Shown here piece after piece: positions 1 to 60,095 of a DNA stretch of 64,000 nt. The stretch's first letter is position 1; each line of letters starts with the position of its first letter. Below the pieces are notes generated by a model. The model was not told the origin of the DNA. It ran no database searches and saw only the letters and a list, made by a program, of their open reading frames with translations. Origin of the DNA: Natrinema sp. DC36 (GTDB lineage: Archaea > Halobacteriota > Halobacteria > Halobacteriales > Natrialbaceae); contig NZ_CP084472.1 of the NCBI RefSeq assembly GCF_020405225.1, positions 1,488,001 through 1,552,000 on the forward strand, written 5' to 3'. The position numbers were made by a program, and so were the translations under genes.

Positions 1-397
1 GCACGGCTTCGGCGGTAGAGCGCGCCTCACGTGGAGAATAATGCCGGACAGCCTGCATTCCCTGTCGGCCAGCGTTTCCCGTTGGCCGGGTGAAACGACG
101 GTGCTATGATACTTGTAGCTATCCGGGAATTACAGGAACTGAGAATCCTCTCGGAATCCGCCTCGATCCCGTTGGACCGTTTCATCGGTCCGAAAATTCG
201 GCACCGAGGCGGTAGTCCTCGTCTCGTGAATCGGGCGTGACGGTTGTGAAATCGACTGATTACACGCGCATTCCCCGCAACAACAACTAATTAGTTGGCT
301 AGAGAGTCCGACAGAATTGACAGTCATCGGAAATGGGTGGCGGGAAAGGCTACCGGAAACCAAACCCGTCTATACGTCTTCGTGGTGGACTTCGGTG
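1..397. other. Leading intergenic region, possible end of a truncated upstream gene
   Basis: No complete gene is visible here. One plus-strand frame is open from base 3 to a TAA at 39-41 and could be the last 12 codons of a gene that begins outside the window, but it is too short to identify. No tRNA T-loop signature or other recognisable RNA element was found. The region carries a perfect palindrome (described separately) about 100 bases before the first clear gene. Confidence 0.3.
284..297. promoter_or_regulatory. Perfect 14-bp AT-rich palindrome
   Basis: CAACTAATTAGTTG reads identically on both strands. It lies about 100 bp upstream of the HTH-10 regulator gene that starts at 398. A short perfect dyad in front of a regulator gene could be an operator, possibly autoregulatory, but no second copy was noticed in the window, so the role is inference. 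Confidence 0.3.
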
Positions 398-1096
398 ATG
401 ACCACAGTCGTCGAACTCGAGATTCCGGCTGCGCGACTCGGCTTCGCCCGGACGTTCGATCGAGTGTCGACGTTCGAGTTTCAGGTCGGCGGGATGATCG
501 GTGGCTCGTCGCCGCTCGTCTGGACGAACGGCCCGGACCGCGAGACGGTCAAGCAGGCGCTCGAGGCGGATCCGTCGGTCGAAGTGATCGCGAGCATCGC
601 CGACGACGCTGATGAGTCCTCGGCGGACGACGGAGTGACGGCCCGTCAGAACGATCGCTGGTTGTTCCGACTCGAATTCGGAGACGGCGTGAAACTGCTC
701 GAACAGATCGTCACCGAGACCGACGGCGCGATCCTGACGGCTCGAGGAGCGAACGGGCGTTGGATGCTGAAGTTGCTGTTCGACGATCGGGAGTCGGTGT
801 CGGCGTGTCACGAGTTGTTCGAGCAATACGAGTACCAGGCCGCCGTCACCCGAATCAGCGGTATCGACGATCTCGCGAGCGCGCAAACACCCCTGACCGA
901 AACGCAGTACGAGACGATCTGCAAGGCGCACGAACTCGGCTACTTCGACGTCCCGAGGGGGGTGACGCTCAAGGAGTTGGCCGCGGAACTCGACGTCTCA
1001 CACCAGGCGCTCTCCGAACGGCTCCGGCGGAGTCACGCCGCCCTCGTCAGCGCTGAACTGTCCGAGCGAACTGCACCGATGGAGATCGATCCCTGA
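398..1096 (+). CDS. HTH-10 (bacterio-opsin activator-like) transcriptional regulator
   Basis: Product of 232 residues. The C-terminal part (about residues 165-220) matches the haloarchaeal HTH-10 domain, with the typical run GYFDVPRGVTLKELAAELDV followed by SHQALSERLRR as recognition helix. The N-terminal part resembles the GAF/HTH-associated sensor half of Bat-like regulators, and its ligand is unknown. The ATG at 398 was chosen because the preceding in-frame residues from 317 have an un-haloarchaeal composition, while the family typically begins close to a strand like TTVVELEIPA. This is probably a DNA-binding regulator responding to a small ligand or stress; the target genes are not evident. 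It is monocistronic. Confidence 0.85.
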   Translation: MTTVVELEIPAARLGFARTFDRVSTFEFQVGGMIGGSSPLVWTNGPDRETVKQALEADPSVEVIASIADDADESSADDGVTARQNDRWLFRLEFGDGVKLLEQIVTETDGAILTARGANGRWMLKLLFDDRESVSACHELFEQYEYQAAVTRISGIDDLASAQTPLTETQYETICKAHELGYFDVPRGVTLKELAAELDVSHQALSERLRRSHAALVSAELSERTAPMEIDP

Positions 1097-49970: not shown

Positions 49971-50435
49971 GCGTTGTCCCTCGCTTCCTGTAGTTGTTCG
50001 TTCGGAAATCGCACGGAGGGACCACAGAGACGGTACCTTGATATGTCATGAGAGAACATGTCCCAGATTGGACTACCATCCATATAACAGTAGTTGGCAA
50101 TGCCATTTCTTTATTCAGGGTGAGATCCGAACTGAATCGTCCGGTTCGATAACTACGTCTGCGAACGTACCTTTTTCCGCCTCGGGTTCGCTCGCGTTGC
50201 TCGCTCACCTCTCGGCGCAAAAATCTACGCTAAAAAGGCCGCTCACTCGCTTCGCTCGTTCGCGGGTGCAACGATTGCGATCCGACCGCAGCAGTAAGTT
50301 CTTCGCCTGTACTGAACAGCAACTACACATGGTCAAGTAGCGGTATTTTTCATACGGGTCTGTGAGGTAAACGCTCTTGAACTGGACACGGTCCCCGAGA
50401 GGTGGGGTTTTTATCTATTCGCGAGAAATAGTGGC
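49971..50435. other. Intergenic region containing a dispersed repeat
   Basis: No gene is accepted here. The stretch 50165-50297 is copy B of the repeat described separately. A 34-codon plus-strand frame starting near 50047 (MREHVPDWTTIHITVVGNAI and on) is open but too short and unsupported. From about 50340 onward GC content drops into the signalling islet. Confidence 0.4.
50165..50297 (+). repeat. Dispersed repeat, copy B
   Basis: Matches copy A at 40701-40830 in the same orientation: ACGTACCTTTTTCCGCCTCGGG, the 30-base core GGCGCAAAAATCTACGC/T-AAAAAGGCCGCTC, GCTCGTTCGCGGGTGCA and CCGCAGCAGTAA. The core is almost identical, whereas the segments between blocks differ, suggesting selection on, or recent copying of, the core. 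Confidence 0.7.
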
Positions 50436-51089
50436 ATGGCAATTGAGGCCTCGTTCACATCCACTAATGACGAGTTCCCTCTCGCGGAAGTCTTCGAGAA
50501 GTTCCCTAGCTCCAAAGTTGAATTAGACCGCGTCGTTCCAACGAATCATGCAATAATTCCATACTTTTGGTTACAACTTGACAATAGCTCAGAGGTTTCT
50601 ATGGATGGAATCAATCATCCCGGCCTCAACGACTTGAAAATAGTTGATAGAGTTGAGGACGAGGCACTTATTCGGATTGAGTGGGATTTAGATTACGAGA
50701 GTGTCCTCAAAGCAATCCTCGAAACGGGTGTATCACTCATGTCAGCTATTGGCAAGGAGGATAAATGGACATTTGACGTCCGTGGTGAGGACCAGCAAGA
50801 TATCTCGGACTTCCAATCATATTGCAATGAGTGCAATATTCCCATTGAACTCGTCCAACTCCACGCGTTGTCCCCGATGCACTCGGGGAACGAGTACGAC
50901 CTCACGGAGGCACAACGGGAAGCCTTGACGCTCGCGTACGCTCGTGGGTACTTTGATTCTCCCCGGGATGCGTCCCAAGATGAGGTCGCTGATGAACTTG
51001 GAATCACCCGCCAAGCATTCGCTTCGCGACTGCGACGAGGTATGAGGCGGTTGGTTTCCAGTACTATTATCCATTCGCCATCCGAATGA
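50436..51089 (+). CDS. HTH-10 (Bat-like) regulator, low-GC
   Basis: 217 residues. The C-terminal HTH-10 domain (about 155-205) reads LTEAQREALTLAYARGYFDS, then DELGITRQAFASRLRRGMRR. The N-terminal 150 residues are the sensor-like half with no recognisable ligand site. Its codons are markedly less GC-rich than most of the window, like its two downstream neighbours, suggesting acquisition as a block. It likely controls genes nearby or elsewhere; a related protein is encoded at 398-1096. Confidence 0.85.
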   Translation: MAIEASFTSTNDEFPLAEVFEKFPSSKVELDRVVPTNHAIIPYFWLQLDNSSEVSMDGINHPGLNDLKIVDRVEDEALIRIEWDLDYESVLKAILETGVSLMSAIGKEDKWTFDVRGEDQQDISDFQSYCNECNIPIELVQLHALSPMHSGNEYDLTEAQREALTLAYARGYFDSPRDASQDEVADELGITRQAFASRLRRGMRRLVSSTIIHSPSE

Positions 51090-51151
51090 CCGTATAAAGA
51101 TATTGCCTAGGCAGAAGTCATTTTCATTCACCTTCCGCCCCTATCTATGTT

Positions 51152-51490
51152 GTGACTCAAGAAAATATCCCCGCCGAGGACTCCGTCGCTGGGCCACTGC
51201 CAACTGCTCTTGATGTCGAGCCCTGTGATGATGGGCGCTATCGCGTCGAATGCGATTTTGCTCTCGACGACCCGAGCCATGCTGTCGTCGCTGCAATCGG
51301 CTCTCTCACCCAAACGGATCCACTAGAACTGGACCCATTGTATCAGGCTATCGACCCTGATGCTCTAAATCAGATGGTCTCCGCAACCCGAGAGGAGTGC
51401 CACGTCTCTTTCCAGTATGCCGACTTCGATGTAACAGTCGATAGTACCGGGGTGATTATCTGCGAACAGCCGGCGGGAGAGAACGTATGA
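51152..51490 (+). CDS. HalOD1 output-domain protein
   Basis: 112 residues, GTG start. It fits the haloarchaeal HalOD1 domain: VVAAIGSLTQTDPLELDPLY, then QAIDPDALNQMVSATRE and a closing pair of strands VSFQYADFDVTVDSTGVII. These domains are thought to act as output modules of signalling systems; biochemistry is unknown. Its stop overlaps the ATG of a 45-codon zinc-ribbon gene (ATGA), indicating translational coupling. A second member is at 59817-60071. Confidence 0.8.
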   Translation: MTQENIPAEDSVAGPLPTALDVEPCDDGRYRVECDFALDDPSHAVVAAIGSLTQTDPLELDPLYQAIDPDALNQMVSATREECHVSFQYADFDVTVDSTGVIICEQPAGENV

Positions 51491-51624
51491 TTGCTATGGT
51501 GGGAGAGTATGTTGAATGTATGAACTGTGAGTTTGTCTTCATGGCTGGGCCGGGTGCAGAACCAGTATCATATCACGGCACATCATGCCCGAATTGTGAC
51601 GAAGAGGAATTTGAATTTTTGTGA
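51487..51624 (+). CDS. 45-residue zinc-ribbon microprotein coupled to HalOD1
   Basis: Starting at the ATG that overlaps the HalOD1 stop (ATGA), the frame encodes 45 residues with two CxxC pairs: YVECMNCEFVFMAG and TSCPNCDEEEFEFL. The knuckles are 20-odd residues apart with an acidic end: a small zinc ribbon. The overlap and the conserved knuckle spacing argue that it is real although very short. It probably binds zinc and a partner, perhaps the HalOD1 protein; the function is unknown. Confidence 0.65.
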   Translation: MIAMVGEYVECMNCEFVFMAGPGAEPVSYHGTSCPNCDEEEFEFL

Positions 51625-51955
51625 GGAACGAAAATAAGCTTGAAACATACATAGTTGCGTCTCACCGACTCTTCTTCCCTTCTATGCTGATTCCTTATTG
51701 GCTATCCTCCAGATGGGTATAATCTCCCTCCTTGGCGAGAATCCACATCGTTTCGAGTTCGTCGTTGGTCGCGTCCAACGGATAAAGAACACACTCGTTG
51801 GCGGAATTTGGATTATCTATTATAATAGCGTTCAATTCACTACGGATATCTCTTTGCCCTGTACTGAGCCCACATCAGCGAGCAATAGATACCGATCGAT
51901 CTCGAGGTCGCGAAATACCCGACCGTATATGTGGGTCTGCACCCGATTGTGTCCC

Positions 51956-57543: not shown

Positions 57544-57996
57544 GTGTCCCATCAGTCCTCTCCCGACCCCGTTTCCATCCTTCTCGTCGAAGACAATCCC
57601 GGCGACGTTCGCCTGATAGAGGAGGCGTTCAAAACGGCGGGATTCGAGACGGTCTTTCACACGTTCACGGACGGTGGATCCGCCCTCGACTTCCTCTATG
57701 AGCAGGTGCTGTCCGCGGGCGGTCCCGACGTGGATCTCATGTTACTCGATCTAAACCTTCCCAGAACGAGCGGATTCGAGGTGCTCGAGACGCTCAAAAA
57801 CGAGTCGAATCTCACGTCGCTCCCGGTCATCGTCCTCACGAGTTCGGAGGCGACCGAAGACATCGTCAGGAGTTACGAACTGTGCGCGAACGCCTATCTC
57901 ACCAAGCCGAGCGATCCGGCCGAGTTCGCCGAACTCGGTCGTGCCGTCGAAGCGTTCTGGATCGACGAAGCGACGCTCCCACCCGTTCCCTCGTAA
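57544..57996 (+). CDS. Response regulator receiver domain protein
   Basis: 150 residues, a single receiver domain with a GTG start. The acidic pair is in ILLVEDNPGDVRLIEE, the phospho-accepting Asp in LMLLDLNLPRTSGFEVL, the Thr/Ser in VIVLTSSEATED, and the Lys in AYLTKPSDPAEFAEL. There is no output domain, so it is an Rcp1-like stand-alone receiver that takes phosphate from a histidine kinase encoded elsewhere. Haloarchaeal receivers of this kind often pair with phytochrome-like or GAF/PAS kinases; none is nearby. Confidence 0.92.
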   Translation: MSHQSSPDPVSILLVEDNPGDVRLIEEAFKTAGFETVFHTFTDGGSALDFLYEQVLSAGGPDVDLMLLDLNLPRTSGFEVLETLKNESNLTSLPVIVLTSSEATEDIVRSYELCANAYLTKPSDPAEFAELGRAVEAFWIDEATLPPVPS

Positions 57997-59816: not shown

Positions 59817-60071
59817 TTAATCGATCGTCACGACCGGGTTCCCGGTCTCGTCGAACTCCACTCGAACCTGATGACCGGCGTACGGAAATCCGACGTATCC
59901 CGACCGCCGTTCGCCGGACTCCGTGGCTGCGAACACTGCGTTGAGTGCATCGGGATCGACCGCGTCAAAGAGCGGCGGTAATTCCATGGGATCGGTCCCT
60001 TCGAGCGCTGCTACCCCGGTAACGATCCGCTCGTGTATCTCGTCGGTATCGAACGCGAGGGTTTGTTCCAT
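59817..60071 (-). CDS. HalOD1 output-domain protein (second copy)
   Basis: 84 residues, the same domain as at 51152-51490: ERIVTGVAALEGTDPMELPP, LFDAVDPDALNAVFAATESG, and a closing strand pair (YVGFPYAGHQVRVEFDETGN). It lacks the N-terminal extension. Here there is no overlapping zinc-ribbon gene, which shows that the microprotein at 51487 is not an obligatory companion. A TATA-like AAAATTATTAAT sits 25-36 bases before the ATG. Confidence 0.78.
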   Translation of the reverse strand: MEQTLAFDTDEIHERIVTGVAALEGTDPMELPPLFDAVDPDALNAVFAATESGERRSGYVGFPYAGHQVRVEFDETGNPVVTID

Positions 60072-60095
60072 TGCAATCTACCGCCACACCACTCC

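Follow-up and report, generated by a model that had tools for sequence, protein, structure and literature searches.

The closest described relatives of the cassette examined here are the Bat/Brz(/Brb) system of Halobacterium salinarum and a gene group of Haloferax volcanii; both are summarized from the available portions of the cited reports. Halobacterium bop needs both Bat, a BAT/HTH_10 protein that also carries PAS and GAF domains, and Brz, a 60-aa zinc finger protein (PMC3184054, PMC2253796). The small protein Brb tunes bop and joins Bat and Brz in activation (PMC3184054). In H. salinarum, a second small protein is co-transcribed with the zinc protein, and both Bat paralogues adjoin small CPxCG zinc finger genes (PMC3184054, PMC2253796). 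In the Haloferax group (HVO_1357, HVO_1358, and HVO_1359), a BAT/HTH_10 regulator likewise has a small CPxCG zinc finger gene nearby; this region is linked to motility (PMC7824242, PMC12240190).

Stand-alone HalOD1 proteins have many paralogues per genome, and a metal site has been proposed for the domain (PMC5847659, Galperin and co-workers 2018). Both disk shape and the density response depend on DdfA (HVO_2176), a HalOD1 protein (PMC10869688, PMC12240190). The available portions of PMC5847659 describe no BAT/HTH_10 neighbour, operator, or coupled small protein for stand-alone HalOD1 proteins. Mainly open-access literature, available in part, yielded no account of a cassette of BAT regulator, HalOD1, and small protein, or of the promoter element described below.

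The window, a 64,000-nucleotide stretch of the chromosome of Natrinema sp. DC36 (G000:C1:1488001-1552000), contains such a cassette:

50308..51654 (+): entire cassette, with a second copy elsewhere on the chromosome (blastn against the second copy)
50436..51089 (+): BAT plus HTH_10 one-component regulator, 217 aa (Pfam HTH_10 1.7e-17, BAT 4.2e-11)
51093..51098 (+): TATA box (TATAAA), predicted promoter for HalOD1 and the ribbon, from reading of the sequence; position conserved behind the regulator stop
51103..51114 (+): candidate operator dyad, TTGCCTAGGCAG; consensus TTRC-N4-GYAA, from which the final base deviates here
51152..51490 (+): stand-alone HalOD1 protein, 112 aa, GTG start (Pfam PF18545 2.1e-21)
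51487..51490 (+): ATGA stop/start overlap between HalOD1 and ribbon, from sequence and open reading frames; overlap or near-overlap in other trios too
51487..51624 (+): putative 45-aa zinc-ribbon microprotein (CMNC...CPNC), outside all curated families

The original prediction had described an HTH-10 regulator, a HalOD1 protein, and a zinc ribbon joined to it by the ATGA overlap. Open reading frames and Pfam bear this out, and add the BAT domain that it had left unnamed. The regulator matches only the BAT and HTH_10 models and overlapping sigma region 4 models (HTH_10, 63.4 bits against a cut-off of 23.1; BAT, 43.3 against 25.8); Pfam finds no PAS, GAF, or REC domain in its 217 residues. It shares 63-66% identity with aligned orthologues from five other genomes. 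The window resembles both described systems in placing a BAT/HTH_10 regulator near a small CPxCG-type zinc finger gene. It differs from Bat/Brz in four respects: the regulator has neither PAS nor GAF; HalOD1 stands in the middle; stop/start coupling ties the zinc gene to HalOD1; and no opsin gene, the adjacent target in Bat/Brz, adjoins the window locus. It also differs from HVO_1357, which has REC, HalX, and GAF domains and stands beside a kinase and a response regulator rather than HalOD1, in the portions of the reports available.

The HalOD1 protein belongs to PF18545 (76.3 bits; gathering cut-off, 26.3). It shares this domain with DdfA, whereas the ddfA neighbours, rdfA and sph3, differ (PMC10869688, in the portion available); against the DdfA model NF053557 (NCBIfam) it scores 63.8 bits, below the equivalog cut-off of 70. 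In Pfam and NCBIfam the ribbon stays below every curated cut-off, and its best PHROG match (E 0.0045) is a family of unknown function. Its cysteine pairs (C11-C14, and CPNC at 34-37) lie 19 residues apart within 45 aa, and were judged by the small zinc finger definition given in PMC2253796. The likeness to Brz drawn here is one of gene context and of a small CPxCG-type zinc finger. Alternative in-frame starts exist at ATG 51496 and GTG 51499, the overlapping ATG being the predicted one.

Fold searches gave no confident match for either small protein. The HalOD1 model (mean pLDDT 79.8) has a best Foldseek E of 0.24, and its best Z, 4.6, to CorC/HlyC-associated and PAS domains, is too weak to be used as a fold assignment. 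The ribbon model reaches a mean pLDDT of 73.6 (49.8 to 73.6 over five models) and a best Foldseek E of 0.28; a ribbon profile found nothing below E 0.14 among sequences of solved structures.

The cassette is flanked by genes for an adenine-deaminase-like amidohydrolase and an XPB-like helicase (Pfam, NCBIfam). Directly behind the ribbon, on the opposite strand, a 46-codon frame at 51698-51835 (-) matches DUF7511 (Pfam 5.4e-08) and looks like a short or truncated gene. The window also holds a further HTH_10 gene at 260-1093 (+), its BAT match below the cut-off, and a further HalOD1 gene at 59820-60077 (-), which does not adjoin it.

The trio behaves as a unit: the block 50308-51654 (1,347 bp) recurs ungapped at 91.5% identity elsewhere on the same chromosome (L002 319-1665; G000:C1 about 230.8-232.2 kb). 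It starts 128 bp ahead of the regulator, runs to 30 bp past the ribbon, and has sharp ends; blastn at E 1e-3 finds no flanking similarity except one 47-bp match elsewhere, at 57577-57623 (83%), to sequence beside the second copy. In that copy the overlapping start codon is GTG, against ATG in the window. Between the copies, dN/dS is 0.19 for the regulator, 0.45 for HalOD1, and 0.47 for the ribbon. Other ribbon pairs give 0.25 (L022/L024) and, for two Natrialba-type pairs, 0.13 and 0.06. From these ratios the ribbon looks like a coding gene, with weak constraint between the two copies in this genome.

The three genes were said to share a low-GC islet. Their GC contents (regulator 0.49, HalOD1 0.555, ribbon 0.44) do lie below the 0.636 of the 64-kb window, and the dip is wider than the islet first described, spanning roughly 49.8 to 52.0 kb. 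Cassettes in relatives are often closer to their host's GC; the low value thus belongs to this locality and does not characterize the cassette. The case for a transferable module rests on the duplicate block and low GC; three scans of viral contigs, by a method that reaches close relatives only, found no relative of the ribbon, HalOD1, or regulator. (HalOD1 has been reported from haloviruses, in the available portion of PMC5847659.) Eight plasmid records match the regulator at 65-70% identity, none covering more than 80% of the query; two were inspected.

Ribbon profile searches matched 7 of 29 genomes in the genus, 38 of 125 in the family, and 48 of 391 in a class sample, from which 78 non-redundant ribbon sites (at most one per locus) were examined for neighbours. 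At 15 of the 78, one with a decayed ribbon (L099), a same-strand HalOD1 gene immediately precedes the ribbon. Less than one would be expected by chance, at about one HalOD1 per hundred genes (an assumed gene number). These 15 sites span five GTDB families (f1, f2, f3, f4, f7); nine stand behind a BAT/HTH_10 gene and six do not. In the 14 pairs with intact ribbons, the distance from HalOD1 stop to ribbon start runs from -17 to +14 nt. Three junction types recur: the window, its copy, L005, and L016 have ATGA or GTGA; L004 overlaps by 8 nt; and other pairs are separated by 2 to 14 nt. At six further sites BAT/HTH_10 is upstream without HalOD1. Neither gene is directly upstream at the remaining 57, nine of which have a HalOD1 domain elsewhere in the locus. 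Two side observations concern the ribbon matches. In genus g19 (L079, L084, L087) a ribbon lies between large and short BAT/HTH_10 proteins without HalOD1. This genome has the same weak ribbon-profile match twice (G000:C1:601194 and 673005; L102, L103); redundancy removal retained one of them, so the surrounding stretch is read as repeated.

The pairing of HalOD1 and ribbon is therefore recurrent, beyond chance. The trio too is more than coincidence, with its second occurrence in this genome and further ones in others: the cassette of regulator, HalOD1, and ribbon is real, recurrent, and of the kind that combines an HTH_10 regulator with a zinc protein. Seen from the HalOD1 side, the pairing is rare. 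This genome has 43 HalOD1 matches in 5.1 Mb (42 over the Pfam cut-off), and only two are followed by a zinc ORF. In six other genomes, picked for already having a HalOD1-ribbon pair, the best-scoring 30 of 148 HalOD1 matches include two with a ribbon behind (L158, L169) and two with a DUF7576-type zinc protein (L149, L162). The latter, a different zinc-finger-like family, stands 38-39 nt behind a BAT-HalOD1 pair. The ribbon had been proposed as a HalOD1 partner, to be sought across haloarchaea. It was indeed found behind HalOD1 in five families and is a recurrent companion; as a general partner of HalOD1 it is ruled out by the 2 of 43 in this genome. In a pooled scan, zinc ORFs followed 6 of the 19 HalOD1 genes that had BAT upstream and none of the 54 that did not, a contrast not relied on because it joins two scripts with slightly different windows and Cys/His patterns, and because HalOD1-ribbon pairs without BAT exist.

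The promoter element is the strongest new result. A profile of eight trio regulators was searched in the 125 family genomes, with the best 24 candidates per genome scored. It delimits a regulator clade of at least 18 matches at 387 bits or more, the next best being 332; one genome (G073) has an additional broken copy. Behind the regulator stop stands a common arrangement: a TATA box, a fixed gap, the dyad TTRC-N4-GYAA, then AAAG. A script detected the dyad in 28 of 30 loci (29 plus the window, L204 excluded), against 1.02 expected in first-order random sequence for a pattern derived from these same loci. Of the two misses, L207 shows the dyad by eye, the wrong stop having been used, and L201 lacks it; L204, outside the count, also has it. 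TATA and dyad are separated by 4 nt in 18 loci and by 6 nt in 10. The half-sites show partial covariation, pairing G/C 13 times, A/T 8, A/C 6, and G/T once; because the loci are related, this does not count as independent evidence.

Since the pattern was drawn from the loci themselves, it was tested across whole genomes. The strict form TWTAAAN{4,6}TTRCNNNNGYAAAAG has 12 exact matches in 12 of the 125 family genomes, against 0 for the reversed control. Every one of the 12 falls no more than about 40 nt from where a clade regulator ends (3' end); therefore, the element is dedicated to this clade and its sister. The strict pattern misses most of the 30 loci, including the window's own site, where the changed last base departs from the consensus. 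Within this genome, a looser TATA-linked form matches once, at the second copy, against two for its reversed control. An 18-base form matches exactly only at the two cassettes from which it was derived; with three mismatches it finds 6 further sites, against 67 for the reversed control.

A dyad common to all BAT-HalOD1 pairs was rejected on inspection by eye: it is missing from six other pairs in this genome (L105, L117, L120, L122, L126, L141) and from most of the eleven inspected in other genomes, so it belongs to one regulator clade and its sister. Four loci outside that clade (L016, L100, L101, L158) have the order regulator, HalOD1, ribbon, with promoters that lack the TTRC dyad. Other short elements behind the regulator stop are shared, by eye, between L120 and L016; among L141, L164, and L172; and between L100 and L158 with L101. 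Each regulator lineage may have its own operator. Directly behind the L016 ribbon is a gene with a receiver domain-like start and a kinase-like end (by eye), and plasmid NZ_CP142029.1 of Haloarcula sp. GH36 has the order regulator, HalOD1, 48-aa gene, response regulator; similar cassettes may for this reason feed two-component systems. On that plasmid, the HalOD1 gene (L230 3713-4018; PF18545 9e-16) is absent from the record's listed genes, and the 48-aa gene abuts the response regulator.

The gene behind HalOD1 is variable. The window's ribbon fills this third slot in the window and in L187-L191. In L192, L194, and L198 the occupant is instead an acidic protein of 82 aa whose gene shares 8 nt with HalOD1; in L205 and L211 it is another zinc ribbon, starting 8 or 9 nt after HalOD1; in L206, L207, L209, and L210 it is a DUF7344-type protein, 5 to 104 nt behind (assigned by Pfam for L207 only, by resemblance for the other three); and in L199 it is a 75-aa protein. 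Neither the 82-aa nor the 75-aa protein matches a Pfam family, and in four loci (L202, L208, L212, L214) a clear third gene is absent.

HalOD1 itself is present behind the regulator in 19 of the 30 loci returned. In 10 of the 11 where it was not found, the third gene remains, and in nine of these ten a short frame overlaps its start, by 4 nt (L185, L186, L204) or 8 nt (L193, L195, L196, L197, L200, L201). In eight loci the short frame starts 62 to 65 nt behind the regulator stop, or at the matching place, which is where HalOD1 begins elsewhere. The exceptions are L203, without a fitting short frame, and L201, whose short frame starts elsewhere. The chance of an open, in-phase leader frame is 0.03 to 0.23 per locus, and the nine loci amount to about three lineages. 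This suggests that stop/start coupling itself is kept after HalOD1 loss; in three Natrialba-type loci the ribbon is still coupled behind the same promoter. Deeper forks of the regulator tree are poorly resolved, and changes of slot were for that reason left uncounted. The constant core of the cassette is the regulator plus its promoter element, which are more constant than HalOD1 and the ribbon.

The element is read as an operator because it is a dyad, holds a fixed core-promoter place, and travels with a DNA-binding protein; from sequence, the bound protein would be the regulator. To our preferred model, in which the cassette regulates itself, includes a coupled small protein that can be exchanged, and is predicted to function like Bat/Brz, we give an even chance. 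The BAT/HTH_10 protein would bind the dyad between the TATA box and the expected transcription start and so switch the HalOD1-ribbon promoter. The simplest form would be repression, lifted once the BAT domain senses its signal. HalOD1 would be produced together with the small third protein, translated through stop/start coupling. The zinc ribbon is a probable co-regulator with either the HTH_10 protein or HalOD1 as its target, much as Brz works with Bat, a role suggested by the Bat/Brz and HVO_1357 zinc finger precedents. For this model speak the nine sites with the full gene order, the specificity of the element, and coupling without HalOD1; against it, the published Bat/Brz pair activates, its known control element sits upstream of the TATA box whereas the window dyad, with its last base changed, lies downstream, L201 lacks a dyad, and 57 of 78 ribbons are near neither gene.

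Its broader form is more tentative: a class of cassettes in which each regulator has its own operator behind its stop, HalOD1 is the shared part, and the coupled slot carries a plug-in effector that sets the output. If this were true, one genome could hold many insulated circuits.

It is rather unlikely that the ribbon serves chiefly as a physical partner for HalOD1, with the HTH_10 gene a neighbour or a mere transcriptional switch. Six ribbon sites do have HalOD1 upstream with no BAT found nearby (L068, L072, L074, L089, L092, L099); counted with the window's own family they reach four further families, and five have intact ribbons at overlaps or gaps of -4 to +9 nt. Such a partnership is hard to reconcile with the 2 of 43 HalOD1 matches that carry a ribbon, with the three Natrialba-type loci that keep the coupled ribbon after HalOD1 loss, or with the 82-aa, DUF7344, and other zinc proteins in the same slot.

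Activation is unlikely: here the BAT/HTH_10 protein would activate the HalOD1-ribbon promoter with the ribbon as obligate co-activator, as Bat/Brz does at bop. A site just downstream of the TATA box usually suits a repressor. The dyad lies 4 or 6 nt downstream of it, and the regulator lacks Bat's PAS and GAF domains. Activation would fit the joint action of Bat, Brz, and Brb (PMC3184054, in the portion available) and the six ribbon sites that keep BAT/HTH_10 upstream without HalOD1. Very improbable is mere packing, in which small signalling genes gather in low-GC islands and overlap without a working link: the 57 ribbons near neither gene and the faster divergence of ribbon and HalOD1 than regulator between copies would suit it, against 15 HalOD1-ribbon sites where less than one is expected, an element specific in 12 of 12 matches, and coupling retained after HalOD1 loss.

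HalOD1 ranks with the most frequently repeated signalling domains in haloarchaea, and its mechanism is not known. Within one short stretch of DNA, the cassette offers a defined regulator, a candidate 22-bp target for it, and two or three small proteins that are coupled; its recurrence in relatives opens a poorly understood signalling family to experiment. It also carries the Bat/Brz idea, in which HTH_10 regulators work with very small zinc proteins, over to one-component regulators linked with HalOD1.
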